Shown piece after piece: positions 45,762 through 56,547 of a stretch of DNA of 64,000 bases. Below the pieces are notes generated by a model that ran no database searches, was not told where the DNA came from, and saw nothing but the letters and a program-made list of their open reading frames with translations. Origin of the DNA: Ectothiorhodospiraceae bacterium (GTDB lineage: Bacteria > Pseudomonadota > Gammaproteobacteria > Nitrococcales > Aquisalimonadaceae); contig JAFIFU010000001.1 of NCBI GenBank assembly GCA_020831885.1, positions 124,001-188,000 of the forward strand. The letters run 5' to 3'. The translations under genes and the position numbers were made by a program. Position 1 is the first letter of the stretch, and each line of letters starts with the position of its first letter.

Positions 45762-46153
45762 ACATGATCCTCCGGCAGTTGCAGCAGGCACTCGCCGGTC
45801 AGTCCGTGGCGCTGGTCCGGCTTGATCACCCGGGTGGTCAGGCGCAGTTGGCCGGCGGTGGGCCGGTCCAGCGGCTCCAGCACCAGGCGTACCGTCTCGC
45901 CGGCATAAGTGGGTGCCTCGAACATCAGATTCTGGGACAGCATCCGGCTGCCCGGGTAGTGCCGGGCGATCAGCCCGCGGACGGCGCTGAACAGCATCAT
46001 GCCGTGGGCCACCGTGGCGCCGAAGGCGGTGTCGGCGGCGAAGTCCGGATCCACGTGGATGGGGTTGTGGTCACCGGACAGATCCGCGAAGGCGTTGAAC
46101 TCCGCCTGGGAGAACGCCCGTCGTTCTTCGAGGGGCGTGTATTCAGCGGGCAT
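45758..46153 (-). CDS. MaoC-family (R)-specific enoyl-CoA hydratase-like protein
   Basis: 131 residues. The hydratase-2 motif is present: FADLSGDHNPIHVDPDFAADTAFGATVAHGMM, with catalytic Asp and His and the GxxxAHGM loop. PhaJ-type enzymes convert enoyl-CoA to (R)-3-hydroxyacyl-CoA, which can feed PHA synthesis. Its start overlaps the acyl-CoA ligase stop by 11 bases and its stop overlaps the second hotdog gene. Substrate is not determined. Confidence 0.82.
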   Translation of the reverse strand: MPAEYTPLEERRAFSQAEFNAFADLSGDHNPIHVDPDFAADTAFGATVAHGMMLFSAVRGLIARHYPGSRMLSQNLMFEAPTYAGETVRLVLEPLDRPTAGQLRLTTRVIKPDQRHGLTGECLLQLPEDHV

Positions 46154-47660
46154 TGCGCAGCTCCTGTTTCTGGATCTTCCCCAGGGCGTTGCGGGGCAGG
46201 GCGCTCATCCACTGTACCTGGGCGGGTACCTTGTAGCCGGCCAGGCGTTCCCGGCACCAGGCACGGAGATCGTCCGTTTCCGGTACAGGGGTGCCGGAGC
46301 GGGCCACCAGGAAAGCCTTGCCCACCTCGCCCCAGCGCGCGTCCGGAACGCCCACCACGGCCACCTCGGCCACGGCCGGGTGCTGTTGCAGCACCTGTTC
46401 CACTTCCGCCGGATAGACATTCTCGCCGCCGGAGATGTACATGTCCTTCCAGCGGTCGACAATGTAGTAGTAGCCGTCGGCGTCGCAGCGGGCCACGTCG
46501 CCGCTGTGCAGCCAGCCGTCGGGCTCGATGGCCTCGCGGGTCGCGTCCGGGCGGTTCCAGTACCCGGGGGTGACGCCCGGGCCGCGGATCAACAGCTCCC
46601 CGGGCTCGCCGGGGGGAAGATCCCTGCCCCGGCGGTCCACGACGCGTACCTCCGCCAGTAGTTGCGGGCGGCCCACGGAGCCGATCTTGTCGCGCACATG
46701 GATTTCGTCGGTGAGAAAGACGGTGGGCCCGGTTTCAGTCATGCCGAAGCCGGTACGGATGGCGATGCCTGATTCCAGATAGCGCTCCGCCACCGGCAAG
46801 GGCAAGGCAGCGCCGCCGCAGCCCCAGGAGCGCACGCCGGCGAGCTTCTCCCCGCTGAAATCCGGGTGTTCCAGCAGCATCTGGTACACCGCCGGCACCC
46901 CGAAGAACACCGTGCAGCGCTGCCCCAGTGTGCGCAGGGCCTCGCCGGGTTCGAAACTGCGCTGCACGATCACGGTACCGCCCACCAGCAACACCGCGGT
47001 GCAGTACAGGTTGATGCCGCCGGTGTGGAACATGGGCAGGACGTTCAGGAAGACGTCGTCCTCCCGCAGGCTGACCGGCAGACCGATGTTCAGATAGTTG
47101 GCCAGCATCATGCGGAAGGTCTGGATCACGCCCTTGGGCTTGCCGGTGGTGCCGGAGGTGTACAACAGGTACCAGATGGAGTCCGGCGAGCGCTCCGGGT
47201 GGGGGCGCAGATCCGGTTTCACCCCGTCCAGGTCCGCGGTGTAGTCACGACTGCGTCCTTCCCCGTCCCCCAGGGAGATCAGCGCCATGTCACCGAAACA
47301 TTCCCCCAGCTCCCGTGCCGCATCGGTGAATTCCTCCCCGTGGATCAGCGCTCCGGGCGCGCAATCCTCGATCAGGCCGGCCAGTTCCGGCACCGCCAGA
47401 CGCCAGTTCAGCGGCACCAGTACCAGGCCGGCCTTGGCGCAACCGAACAGCATGACAAAGAACTCGGCCCGGTTGTGGCCAAGATAGGCCAGGCGGTCGC
47501 CTTCCTTGAGATCCCAGCGTTCGGCGGCCGCCACCGCGAAACGGGCGGCGCGTTCATTGAGTTCCGCATAGGTATAGCGGGTGCCGTCCGCCAGGTCTTC
47601 CAGGGCCTGCTTATCCGGGGTGACCCGTGCCCGGTGGGCGGTCAGGTCGAACATCTGCAT
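46143..47660 (-). CDS. Acyl-CoA synthetase (class I adenylate-forming)
   Basis: 505 residues from ATG 47660, after AAGGAG. Adenylate-forming motifs: LLYTSGTTGKPKGVIQTF (P-loop A3, about 156-173), FGMTETGP (A5, about 296), GYWNRPDATREAI, GWLHSGDVARCDADGYYYIVDRWKDMYISGGENVYPAEVEQVL (A7-A8) and the C-terminal lysine in LPRNALGKIQKQEL (A10). Activates a carboxylate to acyl-CoA; chain length cannot be read. First of an operon with two hotdog proteins, downstream of a crotonase gene, with a repeat copy just ahead of it. Confidence 0.92.
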   Translation of the reverse strand: MQMFDLTAHRARVTPDKQALEDLADGTRYTYAELNERAARFAVAAAERWDLKEGDRLAYLGHNRAEFFVMLFGCAKAGLVLVPLNWRLAVPELAGLIEDCAPGALIHGEEFTDAARELGECFGDMALISLGDGEGRSRDYTADLDGVKPDLRPHPERSPDSIWYLLYTSGTTGKPKGVIQTFRMMLANYLNIGLPVSLREDDVFLNVLPMFHTGGINLYCTAVLLVGGTVIVQRSFEPGEALRTLGQRCTVFFGVPAVYQMLLEHPDFSGEKLAGVRSWGCGGAALPLPVAERYLESGIAIRTGFGMTETGPTVFLTDEIHVRDKIGSVGRPQLLAEVRVVDRRGRDLPPGEPGELLIRGPGVTPGYWNRPDATREAIEPDGWLHSGDVARCDADGYYYIVDRWKDMYISGGENVYPAEVEQVLQQHPAVAEVAVVGVPDARWGEVGKAFLVARSGTPVPETDDLRAWCRERLAGYKVPAQVQWMSALPRNALGKIQKQELRNAR

Positions 47661-47664
47661 GGCT

Positions 47665-48459
47665 CTACTCCTTGGGGAATCGATCAGTGCTTCCCTGGTG
47701 TTCGCCGAGGAAGGCGGCCATGCCGCGGTCCGCTTCCCCGGTGGCAATCTGGTCGACAAAGTTCTCCAGTTCCACATCCAGGGCTGCCGCCACCCGCTGC
47801 GGATCCGGGCGGGTCAGTTGCAGGGTTCGCCGCACGCTGCCCGGGATCTTCCCGCGGATCGCGTGCGCCAGGCGATGCGCCTCATCCCGTACCCGGCCGT
47901 CCTCGGCCAGCCGGGTGGCCAGACCCCAATGCAACGCCTCGTCGGCGTTGATACTGTGATTCAGCAGTTGCACGTCCAGCGCCCGGGCCCGGCCGATACG
48001 TTCCGGCATCAGCGCCGTCCATCCGCCGTCCGGGCTGTAGCCCACGTTGACGTACCACGGGGCGAAACTGGCCTTGGGGCCCACTACAACGATATCGCAG
48101 GCCAGCACCAGCCCGATGGAGCCACCGGTCACCATGCCATGGACGGCGGCAATGCTGGGGCAGGGCAGACGCAGCAGGTCCAGGATCGCCTGGTTGAGCT
48201 GACCGACGATCCGCCGGGAGTAGCGTTGCCGTTCCGGCCGGGGACAGGCATAGAATCCCCCCACATCGCCACCACTGGAAAAGGAGCGACCCTCGGCGGC
48301 CAGGATCAGCGCCCGTGGGGGCTCCTGGGTACAGGCATCCAGTTCGGCGCGCAGAGCATCCAGCAGTTCGGGGACCAGGGCGTTATGCCGCTCGGGTCGG
48401 TTCAGGGTCAGCGTGAGGATGTCATCGTCACGCTGGGTTGTGACCAGGCTTTGAGTCAT
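47665..48459 (-). CDS. Enoyl-CoA hydratase/isomerase family protein, repeat-encoded C terminus
   Basis: 264 residues from ATG 48459; TTG 48501 would add 14 residues and has no ribosome site either. Oxyanion segments are GRSFSSGGDVGGFY (about 56-69) and PSIAAVHGMVTGGSIGLVLACDIVV (about 97-121). The catalytic glutamate position carries VGYSPDGG, where Asp replaces Glu, as in isomerase/lyase-like members. The last nine codons (GSTDRFPKE) are read from the dispersed repeat (47674-47694). The operon continues into the acyl-CoA ligase. Confidence 0.87.
   Translation of the reverse strand: MTQSLVTTQRDDDILTLTLNRPERHNALVPELLDALRAELDACTQEPPRALILAAEGRSFSSGGDVGGFYACPRPERQRYSRRIVGQLNQAILDLLRLPCPSIAAVHGMVTGGSIGLVLACDIVVVGPKASFAPWYVNVGYSPDGGWTALMPERIGRARALDVQLLNHSINADEALHWGLATRLAEDGRVRDEAHRLAHAIRGKIPGSVRRTLQLTRPDPQRVAAALDVELENFVDQIATGEADRGMAAFLGEHQGSTDRFPKE
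47674..47694 (+). repeat. GGAAGCG-family repeat inside the end of a crotonase gene
   Basis: GGGGAATCGATCAGTGCTTCC. It matches the family core with one change (GCGC to GTGC). It overlaps the last codons of the minus-strand crotonase gene and lies 14 bases from the start of the ligase gene. Confidence 0.75.
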
Positions 48460-48490
48460 GGATTTCGGCTGGTTTGATGTGTTTTGTGAA

Positions 48491-48519
48491 ACATGACTCA
48501 ATTGTCATTATGCTGTCAA
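48491..48519 (-). promoter_or_regulatory. Promoter and palindrome of the crotonase-ligase operon
   Basis: Minus-strand TTGACA (48519-48514), 17 bases, TCATGT (48496-48491). Between the boxes lies ATGAC-TCAATT-GTCAT (48493-48508), an inverted repeat that could be a fatty-acid regulator site. Confidence 0.5.
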
Positions 48520-48736: not shown

Positions 48737-49840
48737 TCAGTCCCAGCTCAAGGCGCCCCCGGTGCGGTACTCCGTGACCCGGGTCTCGAAGAAATTCTTC
48801 TCTTTCTTCAGATCCATGATCTCACTCATCCAGGGTAGCGGGTTCTGGGCGCCGGGAAAGGCCACCGGCAGGCCGATCTGGACCAGGCGCCGGTTGCAGA
48901 TGAAGCGCAGGTACTCCGCCATCATGTCCGCGTTCATGCCCAGGACGCCCCGGGGCATGGTGTCCCGGGCGTAGGCGGCTTCCAGCTCCATGCCTTCGAT
49001 CACCAGGTGTCGCATCTCGTCCTGGAAATCGTCTGTCCACAGATGCGGGTTCTCCAGCTTGATCTGGTTGATGACGTCTATTCCGAAATTCATGTGCATG
49101 GATTCATCCCGGAGGATGTACTGGAACTGCTCGGCGGTGCCGGTCATCTTGTTGCGCCGCCCCAGGCTCAGCACCTGGGCGAAGCCGGTGTAGAAGAAGA
49201 TGCCTTCGAACACCACGTAGAAGGCGATCAGATCCCGCAGCAGCCGCTGGTCAGTCTCGGGTGTTCCGGTGACGAACCCCGGATCCCCCAGGCTCCGGGT
49301 GAAGGGCAGTGCCCATTCGGCCTTGGCAGCGACGGAGGGTACCTCGCGGTACATGTTGAACACCTCGCCCTCGTCCATGGCCAGCGATTCGATAATGTAC
49401 TGATAGGCGTGGGTATGGACGGCTTCCTCGAAGGCCTGCCGCAGCAGGTACTGCCGGCATTCCGGATTGGTGATGTGGCGGTAGACGGCGAGTACCAGAT
49501 TGTTGGCCACCAGTGAGTCGGCGGTGGAGAAAAAGCCGAGGCTGCGTTTGACGATGGTGCGTTCGTCGTCGCTGAGGCCGTCCGGCGATTTCCACAGTTC
49601 GATGTCCCGGCCCATGGGGATTTCCTGGGGCATCCAGTGGTTTTCCGAACCGGCCAGGTATTTCTCCCAGGCCCACTGGTATTTGAAGGGCACGAGTTGG
49701 TTGAGGTCGGCGCGGCAGTTGATGATTTTCTTGTCATCCACCTGAACCCGGCGGGCGCCCAGCTCGATGTTCTCCAACCCGGTGGCGCCGGCGGTGCCCT
49801 GATCGCTCCTTCTGTCCTCGACGGTGTTCCGGTCCAGCAT
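48737..49840 (-). CDS. nrdB: Class Ia ribonucleotide reductase, small (radical) subunit
   Basis: Generates the tyrosyl radical for NrdA. 367 residues. Di-iron ligands: Asp in [12 protein letters not shown], Glu and His in [13 protein letters not shown], Glu in [12 protein letters not shown], Glu and His in [12 protein letters not shown]. The radical tyrosine is in VHTHAYQ, four residues after the His ligand, exactly as Tyr122 of E. coli. A complete class Ia R2. It is 265 bases downstream of nrdA on the same strand, in a gap holding a large hairpin. Confidence 0.95.
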
Positions 49841-50105: not shown

Positions 50106-52901
50106 CTACTGGCAGGCCTCGCAGTCCGGGTCGTCGATGGCGCAGGCCTGGGGTTGTGGCGATGGCGCGGTCGGCACCCGGTTCAGCGCACCGTCGGTGA
50201 CCGTGCTTTTCTCCACATGCGTGGCCCCCATGGAGCGCAGGTAGTAGGTGGTCTTCAGTCCCTGTCGCCAGGCCTCCAGGTACAGGTTCTCCAGCTTCGG
50301 TCCGGAGGGTTCGGCCATGTACAGGTTCAGGCTCTGTGCCTGGTCCAGCCACTTCTGCCGGCGTGATGCCGCCTTCACCAGCCAGAGGGGATCCAGTTCG
50401 AAGGCGGTGGCGAACAGGGCCTTGAGGTCTTCCGGCATACGGTCGATGCGCTGCACGCTGCCGTCGAAGTACTTCAGGTCGTTGACCATCACGGCATCCC
50501 AGAGTCCACGCGCCTTCAGGGTCCGCACCAGGTAGGGGTTGACCACCGTGAACTCGCCGGAAAGATTCGATTTCACGTACAGGTTCTGGTACGTGGGATC
50601 GATACCCTGGGAGACGCCGACGATGTTGGCGATGGTGGCGGTGGGGGCGATGGCCAGGCAGTTGGAGTTGCGCATGCCGCCGCGCACTTTCCCGCGCAGG
50701 CTATCCCAGTCCATCCGCTGAGCCGTGTCCATCTCGCAACCGCTCTCCCGGGCCTCCGCCACATAGCGGATGGAATCGATGGGCAGCACACCCCGGCTCC
50801 AGAGCGAGCCGTCGAACGTGGGGTAGCTGCCCCGCTCCCGGGCCAGATCCGCCGAGGCTTCAATGGCGTAGTAGCTGATGGCTTCCTGGCTTTCGTCGGC
50901 GAACGCCACCGCCTGTTCGCTGGCGTAGGGAACGCCCAGCCGGTACAGCGCATCCTGAAAGCCCATCATGCCCAGCCCCACGGGCCGGTGACGCAGGTTG
51001 GAGCGACGGGCCTGGGGCACGCCGTAGTAGTTGATGTCGATGACGTTGTCCAGCATCCGCATGGCGGTGCGTATCGTTCGCCGCAAGCGTTCGTGGTCGA
51101 TGCCATCCTCCCCGACGTGGGCTGCCAGGTTCACCGATCCCAGGTTGCAGACGGCAATCTCCTCGTCCGAGGTGTTCAGCGTGATCTCGGTGCACAGATT
51201 GGAGCTGTGCACCACGCCGGTGTGCCGTTGGGGCGAGCGGAGGTTGCAAGGATCCTTGAAGGTGATCCACGGGTGACCGGTTTCGAACAGCATGGACAGC
51301 ATCCTGCGCCAGAGCCGCTTCGCGGAGACCACCTTGAAGTGGCGGATCTCCCCCCGGGCCGCCCGGGCTTCCAGCTCCTGATAGGCCTCGCGGAATTCCC
51401 GACCGTAGAGTTCGTGCAGGTGGCCGGCCTCGTCCGGCGAGAACAGAGTCCAGTCGGCGTCGGACTGGACCCGTTCGATGAACAGGTCGGGAACCCAGTG
51501 GGCGGTGTTCATGTCGTGGGTGCGTCGGCGGTCGTCCCCGGTGTTCTTGCGCAGCTCCAGAAATTCCTCCACATCCAGGTGCCAGGTCTCCAGATAGGCG
51601 CAGACGGCGCCCTTGCGTTTGCCGCCCTGGTTCACCGCCACGGCGGTGTCGCTGGCAACCTTGAGGAACGGCACCACCCCCTGGGATTTGCCGTTGGTGC
51701 CTTTGATGGGGGCTCCCAGGGCGCGCACCCGTGTCCAGTCGTTACCCAGGCCGCCGGCGAATTTGGACAGCAGTGCGTTATCCCGGATCGCGCCGTAAAT
51801 GCCAGCAAGATCATCCGGCACCGTGGTCAGGTAACAACTGGAGAGCTGCGGCCGCAGGGTGCCGCTGTTGAACAGCGTGGGCGTGGAGCTCATGAAGTCG
51901 AAGCCGGAGAGCAGCCGGTAGAACTCAATGGCACGCTCTTCGCGATCGATCTCGTTCAGCGCCAGGCCCATGGCCACGCGCATGAAAAAGGCCTGGGGCA
52001 GTTCGAAACGGGTTTCCTCCCGGTGCAGGAAGTAGCGGTCATACAAGGTCTGGAGCCCCAGGTAGTTGAACTGCAGGTCGCGGCCCGGCTCCAGTTCCGC
52101 GGCCAGTCCCTCCAGGTCGAACTCCAGCAGCCGGGGGTCCAGCAGTTCCAGCGCCACCCCGCGGTGGATGAATGCCGGAAAATACGTGGCGTAGCGCTGA
52201 TCCATGTCGGCGGCAGTGGCTTTCTCCGGTCGGCCGGCGAGGAACGACAACGCTTCCGCGCGCAACTGGTTCAGCAGCAGCCGCGCGGTGGCGAAGCTGT
52301 AGGCCGGCTCCTGCTCGATCAGGCTGCGGGCGCACATGATCAGCGCCCGGTTCAGTTCCGACTCGCCCACCCCGTCGTAAAGGTTGCGCTTCACGTCCTC
52401 CAGGATACGGGCGGGATCGGTTTCCGGCAGGCCCTCGCAGGCCTCCTCCAGCAAGCGGCCCAGAGCGCTGTAATCCAACGGCACATGCCGACCGTCCGCA
52501 CCGGTCATGTGCAGACGCGGCCCGTCGTCGTCTCCGGGCGGCTGGGCCTCAGCACGGCGTCGGGCGTGTTCTTCGCGGTAAAGCACATAAGCGCGGGCGA
52601 CCTTGTGCTCGCCGGCCCGCATCAGGGCCAGTTCCACCTGGTCCTGAATGTCCTCGATGTGAATGGTGTCCAGCTCCGGCTGCCGTGTGAGTGCGCTGAC
52701 AACCTGTTCGGTAAGGCGCGCGACCCGCTCCTGAATGCGGCTGGAATCGCCGGCCTGTCCGCCCTCCTGTGCGAGAAAGGCCTTTTTCATGGCCAGACTG
52801 ATCTTTCCCGGGTCGAAATCGGTCAGTTCGCCGCTGCGACGAATGACCCGCAAGCCCTGGTGCGCCTGGGTTCGGGATAGGGTTTCAGCAAGTGCTGACA
52901 T
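50106..52901 (-). CDS. nrdA: Class Ia ribonucleotide reductase, large (catalytic) subunit
   Basis: Reduces ribonucleoside diphosphates. 931 residues from ATG 52901, after AGGAGG. An N-terminal ATP-cone (about 17-110, IRRSGELTDFDPGKISLAMKKAF) mediates ATP/dATP control. A longer N-terminal region follows, as in Pseudomonas. Active-site cysteines: LSSCYLTT (about 356), SNLCTEITLNT and AVCNLGSVNL. The C-terminal shuttle pair is in PDCEACQ together with ACAIDD, and the radical-transfer tyrosines lie near TYQNLYVKSN. Expression is probably controlled by an adenosylcobalamin riboswitch and a hairpin covering its ribosome site. Confidence 0.96.
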   Translation of the reverse strand: MSALAETLSRTQAHQGLRVIRRSGELTDFDPGKISLAMKKAFLAQEGGQAGDSSRIQERVARLTEQVVSALTRQPELDTIHIEDIQDQVELALMRAGEHKVARAYVLYREEHARRRAEAQPPGDDDGPRLHMTGADGRHVPLDYSALGRLLEEACEGLPETDPARILEDVKRNLYDGVGESELNRALIMCARSLIEQEPAYSFATARLLLNQLRAEALSFLAGRPEKATAADMDQRYATYFPAFIHRGVALELLDPRLLEFDLEGLAAELEPGRDLQFNYLGLQTLYDRYFLHREETRFELPQAFFMRVAMGLALNEIDREERAIEFYRLLSGFDFMSSTPTLFNSGTLRPQLSSCYLTTVPDDLAGIYGAIRDNALLSKFAGGLGNDWTRVRALGAPIKGTNGKSQGVVPFLKVASDTAVAVNQGGKRKGAVCAYLETWHLDVEEFLELRKNTGDDRRRTHDMNTAHWVPDLFIERVQSDADWTLFSPDEAGHLHELYGREFREAYQELEARAARGEIRHFKVVSAKRLWRRMLSMLFETGHPWITFKDPCNLRSPQRHTGVVHSSNLCTEITLNTSDEEIAVCNLGSVNLAAHVGEDGIDHERLRRTIRTAMRMLDNVIDINYYGVPQARRSNLRHRPVGLGMMGFQDALYRLGVPYASEQAVAFADESQEAISYYAIEASADLARERGSYPTFDGSLWSRGVLPIDSIRYVAEARESGCEMDTAQRMDWDSLRGKVRGGMRNSNCLAIAPTATIANIVGVSQGIDPTYQNLYVKSNLSGEFTVVNPYLVRTLKARGLWDAVMVNDLKYFDGSVQRIDRMPEDLKALFATAFELDPLWLVKAASRRQKWLDQAQSLNLYMAEPSGPKLENLYLEAWRQGLKTTYYLRSMGATHVEKSTVTDGALNRVPTAPSPQPQACAIDDPDCEACQ

Positions 52902-52905
52902 GGTG

Positions 52906-52929
52906 TCCTCCTGTTGTCCGTTCGGAGGA
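52906..52929 (-). promoter_or_regulatory. Hairpin that can sequester the nrdA ribosome-binding site
   Basis: On the minus strand TCCTCC (52929-52924) can pair with the Shine-Dalgarno GGAGGA (52911-52906), a 6-bp stem with a 12-base loop, five bases before the ATG. A plausible expression platform for the riboswitch 95 bases upstream. Confidence 0.6.
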
Positions 52930-53023
52930 ACCATCGCGGGAATGCGGGGCGGGATACCGGTCGTCCACCGTGGCCGGTTTCCCGGTGTGGTACGACGGGG
53001 GTTGATCCTTCCCCAGTCACCTT

Positions 53024-53168
53024 TGACGCGAAGGCTCCTGGCTCATCCTCGGAGGTATTCGGGCTCGATGGCGGGGGCATTGACCCCCTGCCATCACACC
53101 GTTGCGCGACAGCCCCGGATTCTCACCGGTGTTCCCCTCTCGACCGTTGCACCATATGTGGTGCGTCA
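53024..53168 (-). promoter_or_regulatory. Adenosylcobalamin (B12) riboswitch controlling nrdA
   Basis: Reading the minus strand, 53168 to 53024: a closing helix TGACGC ... GCGTCA, the core GGGGAACACCGGTGAGAA then TCCGGGGCTGTCGCGCAACGG, an arm AGGGGGTCAATGCCCCC, the run GAGCCCGAATACC, and a B12-box-like GAGCCAGGAGCC. Known cobalamin riboswitches share GGGAA, CCGGTGnnAATCCGG, the CTGTCGCGCAACGGT core and the GAATACC/B12 box in this order. The rest of the 329-base metR-nrdA gap holds a promoter upstream and about 120 bases to the nrdA start with GC-rich foldable segments. Class Ia reductases under B12 control are known in species that also carry B12-dependent class II enzyme. Confidence 0.93.
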
Positions 53169-53185
53169 GGTGAGGACAAAGACAA

Positions 53186-53213
53186 GATATAGTTGTTTTC
53201 CCCGTGTGACAAG
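53186..53213 (-). promoter_or_regulatory. Candidate promoter of the riboswitch-nrdA transcript
   Basis: Minus strand CTTGTC (53213-53208) with a 16-base spacer to TATATC (53191-53186), about 15-20 bases before the riboswitch. It is the only A/T-rich stretch between metR and the aptamer. Confidence 0.4.
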
Positions 53214-53230: not shown

Positions 53231-54148
53231 CTACAGGGGATGGATGCCGCTGAGGGTCTGGCTGGTGCGCACACGGGCCAGGCGGATGAAGGCATCCATG
53301 TAGGGGCGATCGCGGTCCTCCCTGCGGACGGCGGCGTACAGTGTGCGCCAAAGACCTGTCGGCCCCAGCCGCAGCGCGGCCAGGTTGTCCCTGTCCAGGT
53401 ATTCGGTGAGGGCCCAGTTGGGCAGCGCGGCCACGCCGCGGCCGTTGGCCACCAACTGGATCAGCATGACCGTGAGTTCCGCGGTGCGTTCCGCTGCGGG
53501 TTGCACGCCGGCCGGGTCCAGGAAACGGTGGAAGATGTCCAGGCGGCTACGGCAGACCGGATAGCTGATCACGGTCTCCGGTGCCAGATCCGCCGGCTCC
53601 ACCCATGCCCGGCCGCCCAGCCGGTGCTGGCCGGGGATGGCCAGCAGCATTTCGTAGCGGAACAGCGGCACGTAATCCAGACCGCCCAGATCCTCCGGAT
53701 CCGAGGTGATCACCAGGTCCACCTCGCCCCGGTAGAGCGCGGGGAGCGGATGAAAACTGTATCCCAGTGAAAGGTCCAGCTCCACCTGGGGCCACTGACT
53801 GCGGTAATCGTCCATGGCCGGCATCAGCCAGTCGAAACAACTGTGACACTCCACCGCCGTGTGAAGCCGGCCCTGCTGGCCGGCGCCGGTGTCCCTGAGC
53901 GCCTGTTCCGCCGCATCCACCTGGGGCAGTATCCCCTCGGCCAGCGCCAGCAGCCGTTCACCCGCCGGCGTCCAGCGCAGCGGCCGCGTCTTGCGGAAAA
54001 ACAGCCGGGCGCCGAAGTAGTCCTCCAGCGCGCGGATCTGGTGTGACAATGCGGATTGCGTCAGATGCAGCTGCGCTGCCGCGCCGGACAGGCTGCCGTG
54101 ACGCTGGATGGCCTTCAGGCTGCGGAGGTGTCGGAGTTCCAGGAACAT
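53231..54148 (-). CDS. metR: LysR-type regulator MetR
   Basis: 305 residues. Helix-turn-helix: LRSLKAIQRHGSLSGAAAQLHLTQSALSHQIRALEDYFGARLFFR (about 8-52). The effector domain carries the MetR pattern HTAVECHSCFDWLMPAMDDYRSQWPQVELDL, with the histidine/cysteine region that binds homocysteine. It is divergent from metE with a 95-base gap containing a MetR box, the standard arrangement. It should activate metE when homocysteine accumulates (family knowledge). nrdA lies downstream on the same strand behind its own promoter. Confidence 0.93.
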   Translation of the reverse strand: MFLELRHLRSLKAIQRHGSLSGAAAQLHLTQSALSHQIRALEDYFGARLFFRKTRPLRWTPAGERLLALAEGILPQVDAAEQALRDTGAGQQGRLHTAVECHSCFDWLMPAMDDYRSQWPQVELDLSLGYSFHPLPALYRGEVDLVITSDPEDLGGLDYVPLFRYEMLLAIPGQHRLGGRAWVEPADLAPETVISYPVCRSRLDIFHRFLDPAGVQPAAERTAELTVMLIQLVANGRGVAALPNWALTEYLDRDNLAALRLGPTGLWRTLYAAVRREDRDRPYMDAFIRLARVRTSQTLSGIHPL

Positions 54149-54243: not shown

Positions 54244-56547
54244 ATGGCGGTGACGCATAATCTGGGTTTCCCGCGAATCGGCGCGGGACGGGAGCTGAAA
54301 CAGGCCGTGGAGGCCTACTGGCGGCAGGAGATCGACCGGGAAACCCTGGAGCGCCGGGGCGCGGAGTTGCGGGCCCGCCACTGGGAACTGCAGGCGGCGG
54401 CCGGGCTGGACTGGCTGCCGGTGGGCGATTTCTCATGGTACGACGGTGTCCTGGACACGGCACTGATGCTGGGCGCCGTGCCGGTCCGGTTCGGCGCGGG
54501 GCGCGATCTCGATACCGCATTCCACATGGCGCGGGGGCGCGCTCCAGGGCGCAGGGACGCGCCGCCATGCGCCATGCTGAAGTGGTTCGATACCAACTAC
54601 CACTACATCGTTCCGGAGCTGGCGTCCGGTCAGGACTTCGAGTTGCATCCGGAGGCGCTGCTTGATCAGGTCCGGGAACTGCAGGCGCTGGGGTATCGGG
54701 GCAAACCCGTGCTCCTGGGGCCGGTGAGTTTCCTGTTGCTGGGCCGTTATCAGGGGGACGGCCATGTACTGGAGCTGTTGGACGCGCTGTTGCCCTGTTA
54801 CGGGCGTTTGCTGGAGCTGCTGCGGGATGCCGGCTGCGAATGGGTGCAACTGGACGAACCCTGCCTGGCCACCGACCTGGACGAACGGGCGGTGCGGGCC
54901 CTGGAGCAGGCCTACCACCGGCTTCAGGTCCCCGGGCTGAAGCTCTTGCTGGCCAGTTATTTCGGGGATCCGGGTGAACACCTGGATCTGGTCATGCACC
55001 TGCCCACGGATGGGCTCCATGTGGATCTGGTCCACGGCACGCTGGATCTGTCCACCCTGCTGGACCGGCTGCCCCCTTACAAGGTGCTGTCCGCGGGTGT
55101 GATCGACGGTCGCAACATCTGGCGCGCCGATCTGGAGGCGCTGCTGGACCGGCTGGAGCCTGTGTATCGCCGGCTGCAGGAGCGTTTGTGGCTGGCGCCG
55201 TCCTGTTCGCTCCTGCATGTGCCGGTGCGGCTGGACCGGGAAGATGGTCTGGATCAGGAACTGCACCGCTGGTTGGCATTCGCGCGGGAGAAGGTTCAGG
55301 AGCTTGTCCTGCTCGGGCGGGGGCTGGCCGACGGGCGGGATGCCGTGCGTAAGCAACTGGCCGAGTGCCGCCGCGCATTGCAGACCCGGCGGCACTCGGG
55401 GCGTATCCGCGATGAGGCGGTGCGGGAGCGTCTACGGGCGCTGCCGGCGGACGCCGATCGCCGTGCCAGCCCTTTCCCGGTGCGGGCCGCCTTGCAGCAG
55501 CGACGGTTGCAGCTTCCGCTGTTTCCCGTGACCACGATCGGCTCGTTTCCGCAGACCACCGAAATCCGGCGCCTGCGGCGGGATCATCGGGCCGGGCGGG
55601 TATCGGATCACGATTACCGCACCGCCATGCAGCGGGAGATTGCCGAAGCCGTGGCCCGTCAGGAGCGGCTTGGCCTGGACGTGCTTGTGCACGGGGAGCC
55701 GGAGCGTAACGATATGGTGGAGTACTTCGGCGAGCAGTTGTCCGGTTATGCGTTTACCCGCCAGGGCTGGGTGCAGAGTTATGGAACCCGCTGCGTGAAA
55801 CCGCCCATTCTCTACGGTGATGTGTCACGTCCGCGGCCCATGACTGTGGACTGGGCACGCTACGCGGCGGGCCTCACCGAGCGGCCCATGAAGGGCATGC
55901 TGACCGGGCCGGTGACGCTGATGCAGTGGTCCTTCGTGCGCGATGATCTGCCACCGGACACTGTCTGCCTGCAACTGGCCCTGGCGCTTCGTGACGAGGT
56001 AGAGGATCTGGAGCGGGCCGGCTTGCCCATCATACAGATCGACGAGCCGGCCCTGCGCGAAGGGCTGCCGTTGCGCCGCGCGGGCTGGGGAGATTATCTG
56101 GATTGGGCCGTCCGGTGCTTCCGGGTGGCCAGCAGCCCGGTCGCAGACGGCACGCAGATCCATACCCACATGTGTTACTCCGCGTTCAATGACATCATGC
56201 CCGCCATCGCCGCCCTGGATGCTGACGTCATCACCATCGAGGCCACCCGGTCCGGCATGCGGTTGCTGGATGCCTTCGCCGATTTCAGCTATCCCAACGC
56301 CATCGGTCCCGGGGTGTACGATATCCATTCGCCCCGGGTGCCGGCGGTGGAGGAAGTGCTGGAACTGCTGCGCCGCGCTCTTCGTGTGTTGCCCGCGGAA
56401 CGGCTCTGGGTGAACCCGGATTGCGGCCTGAAGACAAGGAGCTGGCCGGAGGTCGAAGCCGGCCTTGCGGTGCTGGTGGCGGCGGCCCGGCGGCTTCGGG
56501 AGGACTATGCGGGGGCGGATGTGGACCCGCGGCGCGTACGGGTCTGA
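54244..56547 (+). CDS. metE: Cobalamin-independent methionine synthase
   Basis: Methylates homocysteine from 5-methyl-THF-glutamate using zinc. 767 residues, the normal size, with the duplicated TIM-barrel layout. N terminus [22 protein letters not shown]. Zinc ligands: His and Cys in [15 protein letters not shown] (about 640) and Cys in [11 protein letters not shown] (about 725). Substrate contacts are in [13 protein letters not shown] and [23 protein letters not shown] precedes ATG 54244. It is the B12-free alternative to MetH, next to the B12-switched nrdA. Confidence 0.97.

Follow-up and report, generated by a model that had tools for sequence, protein, structure and literature searches.

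The class Ia ribonucleotide reductase operon nrdAB, carried on the 64-kb stretch of DNA analyzed here (the window), is directly preceded on the same strand by an element that is confirmed, at the level of sequence comparison, as a genuine cobalamin riboswitch, and the reading favored here, with a probability of about 0.8, is that this riboswitch switches off nrdAB translation when coenzyme B12 is high. The genes that surround it are as follows.

50106–52901, minus strand: nrdA, class Ia ribonucleotide reductase alpha subunit with ATP cone (NF005544, 1643 bits; PF03477; PF02867)
48737–49840, minus strand: nrdB, beta subunit (NF005550, 680 bits; PF00268)
53231–54148, minus strand: metR-like LysR regulator, upstream (best NCBIfam match MetR NF011950, 302 bits, below the cut-off of 382)
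54244–56547, plus strand: metE, B12-independent methionine synthase, divergent (TIGR01371, 1043 bits)

The start of nrdA is most likely the ATG at 52901, which lies behind GGAGGA, while the list of open reading frames takes an earlier ATG. No riboswitch was found before metE in an Rfam search of the window and the genome. On the 3' side of nrdB, the frames at 46143–48501 (minus strand) resemble an enoyl-CoA hydratase and an acyl-CoA ligase by eye.

Identity and Borders of the Aptamer

A cmscan of the whole window against Rfam returned a single RF00174 match at 53011–53182 on the minus strand (35.9 bits, E = 1.9e-5), only 4.4 bits above the gathering score of 31.5 bits and flanked by the MetR-like gene and nrdA. 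The initial annotation had read a cobalamin riboswitch on the minus strand between metR and nrdA and had proposed an RF00174 search of that strand as a check, and the match above the gathering score bears this reading out. The parts of the aptamer, with borders set by alignment with relatives, are listed below.

53045–53177, minus strand: cobalamin aptamer (RF00174, 35.9 bits)
53177–53172 with 53050–53045, minus strand: P2, from the alignment with relatives; covaries
53095–53090 with 53072–53067, minus strand: P6, covaries in relatives
53137–53131, minus strand: aptamer core GGGGAAC
53054–53067, minus strand: B12 box CGAGCCCGAATACC, from the alignment of relatives
53103–53110, minus strand: L5 loop GTCGCGCA, with CGCG at 53108–53105, the expected partner of L13, from a pattern search of relatives

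The alignment that Rfam gives for the 3' part of the window element is out of register: it places the B12 box on a look-alike, GAGCCAGGAGCC (53044–53033), which forms part of P13 and of the antisequestor strand described below. The span first proposed, 53024–53168, thus contained a real element with a wrong 3' border, its last 20 bases being P13 and the antisequestor strand according to the relatives. The L5 pattern is present in 41 of the 42 scanned loci, L193 being the exception; the pattern scan for the B12 box missed nine of these 42 loci, so that the CGCG listing is empty for those nine.

The same element occurs in two other genomes of the window's genus and in four of a sister genus, where the P2 helix of the window, GUCCUC...GAGGAU, is altered on both sides to GUCUUC...GAAGAC. 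Across 22 relatives, 21 of whose rows are distinct, pairing reaches 88.6% in P2 and 100% in both P4 and P6, although P4 carries no covariation weight because it is invariant across the aligned relatives. Among the 21 distinct rows, 35 double-changed cells were observed against 13.4 in shuffled alignments, with none of 500 shuffles reaching as high, and sliding the helix partners gave at most seven such cells. On the whole structure, two of the five covariation measures (pairs with a double change, and further pair types) were not above the shuffles, being reached by 172 and 198 of 500. Many columns of the core are invariant in the 22 aligned relatives as well as in seven close ones; under a covariance model made from seven sequences, the window reaches 141 bits, a value that is high by construction, the window sequence being among the seven. 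That the element is a decayed and functionless relic, as its low Rfam score and the G.U closing pair of the window P2 might suggest, is highly improbable in the face of this covariation and invariant core, and of an aptamer, P13, switching strand and Shine-Dalgarno hairpin that are kept in three genomes of the genus.

Promoter and Expression Platform

The regions that flank the aptamer contain a promoter-like site and a set of strands with competing partners.

53184–53212, minus strand: sigma-70-like promoter TTGTCA-17-TATCTT (one found versus 0.1 in shuffles; similar spacing by eye in relatives)
53019–53035, minus strand: P13 hairpin GCCTT/AAGGT with loop L13, CGCGTCA (53030–53024); motif in 22 of 22 loci and present in the fold of the window
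53027–53039, minus strand: antisequestor strand AGGAGCCTTCGCG, which resembles the Shine-Dalgarno strand and overlaps the 5' part of P13
52926–52938, minus strand: switching strand CGCGATGGTTCCT, for which the antisequestor competes with the Shine-Dalgarno and AUG; its CGCG is invariant in 22 of 22 aligned rows
52900–52934, minus strand: P14-like hairpin that sequesters the Shine-Dalgarno and AUG, ATGGTTCCTCC with GGAGGA.C.ACCAT, from a predicted fold

The RNA probably starts near 53177, the first base of the aptamer, as judged from the promoter-like site. An NrdR box that would overlap the promoter (CTATATCTTGT) was rejected as a candidate; inspection by eye revealed no further box at the customary spacing.

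Two mutually exclusive folds of the leader are predicted at nearly the same energy (−60.0 and −58.8 kcal/mol), one with the hairpin that hides the Shine-Dalgarno and AUG, the other with a helix in which the antisequestor (53039–53027) and the switching strand (52938–52926) form 12 pairs and one mismatch. In a set of 22 loci, composed of 15 nrdA loci, four g2 loci and three g171 loci, the best fold without the Shine-Dalgarno hairpin lies within 3 kcal/mol of the best one without the antisequestor helix in 15 loci and within 5 kcal/mol of it in 20; a gap above 3 kcal/mol, of either sign, is seen in L163, L164, L170, L175, L179, L187 and L188. Over the same loci, the expected number of pairs is 5.1 versus 0.64 in dinucleotide shuffles for the antisequestor helix and 6.4 versus 2.0 for the Shine-Dalgarno hairpin, and for 21 of the 22 the sum over both helices is larger than in the shuffles; in L165, among the 22 loci folded, neither helix is predicted. 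The antisequestor duplex changes on both sides in relatives (for example, GAACC/GGUUC, GAGCC/GGCUC and GAAUC/GAUUC), and each locus's own duplex is stronger than swapped ones, with −14.2 versus −12.9 kcal/mol (permutation p = 0.02; 16 distinct of 22). A pairing of the GGGGAAC core with the anti-Shine-Dalgarno strand was rejected as the main alternative fold; it was seen in one fold, and its partner is, by eye, not kept in several relatives.

The Shine-Dalgarno of nrdA leaders is paired at 0.77 with the riboswitch (n = 35) versus 0.53 without (n = 76), a comparison that partly reflects base composition, since GC is 0.57 versus 0.50 and shuffling the upstream part alone lowers the value from 0.77 to 0.72; 25 of the 35 leaders are above their own shuffles. 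The CGCG of L5 and of L13 is found in both loops in 22 loci and is invariant and palindromic, so that the kissing loop between them carries no covariation support.

Proposed Mechanism of Control

In the favored reading, transcription would begin at or near the first aptamer base, as the promoter-like site and its spacing suggest. When B12 is scarce, AGGAGCCTTCGCG would pair with CGCGATGGTTCCT and leave the Shine-Dalgarno and AUG accessible, a state indicated by the predicted fold and by the comparison of relatives. When B12 is bound, the kissing of L5 and L13 would fix P13 and withdraw the antisequestor strand, whereupon ATGGTTCCTCC could fold onto GGAGGACACCAT and hide the start site; the sequence allows this pairing, and the action of the ligand is modeled on the btuB and metE literature. 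The B12-dependent class II reductase NrdJ, the gene of which is present in the genome, would then supply DNA precursors.

The opposite sign of control, in which B12 turns nrdAB on, is very unlikely. An activating corrinoid riboswitch is known from A. halodurans cobT (described in part of PMC10653944), and fold predictions alone do not give the sign; against this, P13 and the antisequestor share one strand, so that fixation of P13 favors the Shine-Dalgarno hairpin and hence a repressing wiring, the genome encodes NrdJ, and its two further riboswitches precede nrdD and a btuB-like gene.

The same riboswitch might instead act mainly on transcription, by exposing a Rho site or by early termination, with translation affected secondarily. 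The window leader offers about 110 nt between P13 and the AUG, the E. coli btuB riboswitch causes Rho-dependent termination after translational repression (in a portion of PMC11162775), and much of the nrdAB transcription of Propionibacterium acnes seems to end before the first gene (in a portion of PMC3848588). No intrinsic terminator was found between the aptamer and nrdA, the conserved features sit on the Shine-Dalgarno, and Rho would add to sequestration rather than replace it; mainly transcriptional control is judged unlikely, and translational repression is retained as the preferred reading.

B12 Physiology of the Genome and the Likely Ligand

The genome (4.13 Mb, 99.99% complete) contains three RF00174 matches, located before nrdA, before nrdD and before a btuB-like gene. 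The nrdD riboswitch scores 80.4 bits, with NrdD at 356.9 bits on a partial stretch of DNA, and the btuB-like gene lies after reading frames that resemble an ABC permease and an ATPase by eye. An intact NrdJ is encoded on contig C96 (575.6 bits; cut-off 399.95), a contig without any RF00174 match; this search supplied the class II enzyme that the initial annotation had required elsewhere in the genome.

In the family (14 genomes), MetH is above its cut-off in every genome. CobB/CbiA has no match in five genomes of the 14, including the present one and G006, and in G007 the match falls just under the cut-off. Because CobB/CbiA, the one pathway gene examined, has no match here, the genome probably imports B12 from outside rather than making it.

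That the ligand is methylcobalamin, hydroxocobalamin or a broader set of corrinoids, in place of adenosylcobalamin, is unlikely, though slightly less so than mainly transcriptional control; if it were true, nrdAB would answer to total corrinoid or to the light state and not to the NrdJ cofactor itself. Such a ligand would fit the window aptamer, which is without the large P6 accessory region found in the nrdD copy, and RF01482 outscores RF00174 in L141, L142, L148 and L091, although the matches in L148 and L091 are under the RF01482 cut-off. On the other side, RF01482, a model named for AdoCbl, fits relatives before nrdA, and class II reductases use AdoCbl as their cofactor. Corrinoid sensitivity is described as broad in the cobalamin riboswitch class in part of PMC9600662, a point that again speaks for the wider range.

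Distribution in the Order and the Class

Within the family, class I NrdA above the cut-off is confined to genus g1 (3/3 genomes), in which all copies carry the riboswitch. Across the order (54 genomes), the element model R1 gives 23 matches in 20 genomes, and by tblastn of the flanks 15 of these precede nrdA, four a small g2 gene, two a btuB-like gene and two nrdD. Every one of the 15 canonical class Ia nrdA loci detected in the order has the riboswitch in front; TIGR02506 is above its cut-off in 16 of the 54 genomes, and the count of 15 omits G051 (540 bits, apparently class Ib) and G038 (in pieces) and comprises the remaining 14 together with G016, the gene of which is cut by a contig end. 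Eleven of these 15 loci have a MetR-like sequence upstream, some of the contigs ending early. G032 shares its scaffold coordinates with the named locus L007 and is accordingly taken as Nitrococcus mobilis Nb-231, which would make this the order of Nitrococcus (Ectothiorhodospiraceae in NCBI).

Two side observations were made in these genomes. In G051, locus L150 shows an RF00174 match of 146.6 bits (oriented 211–398) before an nrdI-like frame, followed by NrdE- and NrdF-like frames by eye, which points to a class Ib operon with a cobalamin riboswitch in front of it. The NrdJ profile match is split by at least about 1 kb within one open frame in G012, G020, G022, G023, G024, G026, G029, G030, G032, G034, G035 and others, a pattern suggestive of an intein within this class II enzyme; the NrdA of G034 is likewise split within an open frame.

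Among 369 genomes drawn evenly across the class Gammaproteobacteria, R1 matches 31, probably a lower bound because the search filters were strict. The riboswitch stands before nrdA in 24 of the 369, spread over 19 families (22 by tblastn, with G117 and G321 by coordinates), and in the other seven the downstream gene is btuB-like (G053, G339), nrdD (G208) or of unknown function (G207, G317, G413, G287). The matches number 36 in all: six are without a locus of their own, of which one was read as L184, those of G117 and G321 were assigned by coordinates, and three are second matches in G256, G142 and G307. Outside the order, 13 of 20 class nrdA loci have a MetR-like sequence no more than 1.5 kb upstream. 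In G256, the second match lies at C1:11846–13735 before nrdA-like pieces that lack the middle of the profile, the riboswitch-nrdA locus being elsewhere in that genome.

NrdJ accompanies the riboswitch-nrdA pair in 22 of the 24 genomes, in 21 of them above the cut-off or with an E-value far below that of the NrdA-like match, and in G088 as two pieces at contig ends; G256 and G368, both recorded at 99% completeness, show NrdA-like matches only and no NrdJ. The claim that the arrangement makes sense only if NrdJ exists is thus nearly but not wholly borne out, these two genomes being the exceptions. The riboswitch occurs in 2 of 105 genomes without NrdJ versus about 20 of 220 with NrdJ above the cut-off, an association (Fisher p = 0.01 to 0.03, depending on how G088, G117 and G321 are counted) that is approximate, the lists being hand-read and most genomes being scored by the best E-value in the genome table. 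The group without NrdJ consists of 104 genomes with a single NrdA-like match, one of them with the riboswitch, and G256.

A riboswitch before nrdAB is of a known kind and is more widespread than first assumed: the initial annotation regarded it as known mainly from actinobacteria and notable in this lineage, a view not supported by its recurrence in 24 genomes and 19 scattered gammaproteobacterial families. At the same time, R1 finds no element in 78 of 80 named nrdA loci, some with little upstream DNA, and only the two Nitrococcus loci match; for Caulobacter crescentus, a species with both NrdJ and class I subunits, riboswitches are given only before btuB and metE in the portion of PMC6538847 that bears on it. 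Together, these two results indicate that the pairing of the riboswitch with nrdA is far from universal.

The Riboswitch before Small Genes of Unknown Function

What stands out most is that the switch is retained before small genes in genomes where class Ia nrdA was not found. In four of the five g2 genomes (L163–L166 in G001, G004, G003 and G005), an nrdA-type riboswitch precedes a gene of about 140 amino acids, located about +75 to +500 after the aptamer, and class I NrdA above the cut-off is present in none of the four. The protein has no significant Pfam match (G004 and G001 copies, and the N-terminal part of the G003 copy) and no NCBIfam match (G004 copy).

Similarly, L186–L188 (G207, G317 and G413 of genus g171 in another family, f159) carry a close copy of the riboswitch, at 84–90 bits, before a protein of 132–160 amino acids that is present in all three sampled g171 genomes and differs from the g2 protein. 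Its G413 copy gives weak winged-helix matches below the cut-offs (MarR_2, 6.6e-05), and its G207 copy gives next to none; the three genomes contain NrdJ and no NrdA-like match. The g2 and g171 loci keep the aptamer, P13 and the CGCG switching strand, and most keep the Shine-Dalgarno hairpin. It is conceivable, if doubtful, that these small genes encode regulators of the reductase system, or partners of it, that are repressed by B12 and would replace nrdA in the circuit. Elsewhere, in L202 (G287), a cobalamin riboswitch precedes, at +137, a protein of 181 amino acids, the middle of which resembles half an ATP cone by eye; Pfam gives no support for this half cone.

Relation to Known Systems

Borovok et al. 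(2006), cited in PMC5962746 and PMC8620254, reportedly described a cobalamin riboswitch of Streptomyces nrdABS under a title that speaks of transcription control. The window shares with that system a cobalamin riboswitch before a class Ia reductase operon, and differs from it in phylum and in having the Shine-Dalgarno as the likely target. In P. acnes, cobalamin riboswitches lie before nrdAB and nrdDG, with none given before nrdRJ in the portion of PMC3848588 concerned. As in the present genome, the B12-free reductases of classes I and III there have the riboswitch and class II does not; unlike it, P. acnes is an actinobacterium in which transcription appears to end before the first gene. B12-elements before nrdDG are described for Desulfovibrio vulgaris and Desulfuromonas, genomes with NrdJ, in a part of PMC545781 that credits earlier sightings in other genomes to a Rodionov paper; a B12-free isozyme is likewise placed under a B12 riboswitch with NrdJ in the genome, although in those bacteria it is of class III only.

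For the E. coli btuB riboswitch, parts of PMC11162775 and PMC10653944 describe an L5–L13 kissing loop that fixes P13 and favors a hairpin over the ribosome binding site. A kissing loop, P13 and a P14-like Shine-Dalgarno hairpin are proposed for the window element too, on the basis of its sequence. The target in E. coli is a B12 transporter gene, whereas here it is nrdAB, and in the present case it is the anti-Shine-Dalgarno strand itself, at a distance of about 90 nt, that is proposed as the alternative partner of the P13 strand. Among plasmid records, just four matches turned up, all from Deinococcus; the aptamer core of a Deinococcus plasmid B12 uptake locus (NC_015170.1) is 83.1% identical over 89 bases, but the gene behind that aptamer encodes the substrate-binding protein of an ABC transporter, with cobO and then cobyrinate a,c-diamide synthase further downstream.

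Further surveys bear on nrd control to varying degrees. The nrd genes of P. aeruginosa are said to respond independently of a B12 riboswitch (part of PMC5962746), and in Chlorobi riboswitches are described for btuB, metE and nrdD, mainly translational (part of PMC8620254). The main text of a study of B12-elements in three metagenomes names no nrd gene in the portion available (PMC2211319), and the available portion of PMC3766115 contains no nrd term. Among the literature matches listed, by titles and the starts of abstracts, none concerns a gammaproteobacterial nrdA riboswitch; Rodionov 2003 and Vitreschak 2003 may list cases.

Implications

Predicted B12 control of the aerobic reductase extends beyond the actinobacteria to 19 sampled gammaproteobacterial families, in a recurrent layout that is often metE-metR-riboswitch-nrdAB and nearly always has NrdJ in the same genome. 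The predicted bistable leader is small, with clear and opposite effects expected of mutations in it, and the mechanism and its physiology are thereby directly testable. In a probable B12 scavenger such as this bacterium, the supply of DNA precursors would be tied to a vitamin obtained from its neighbors.
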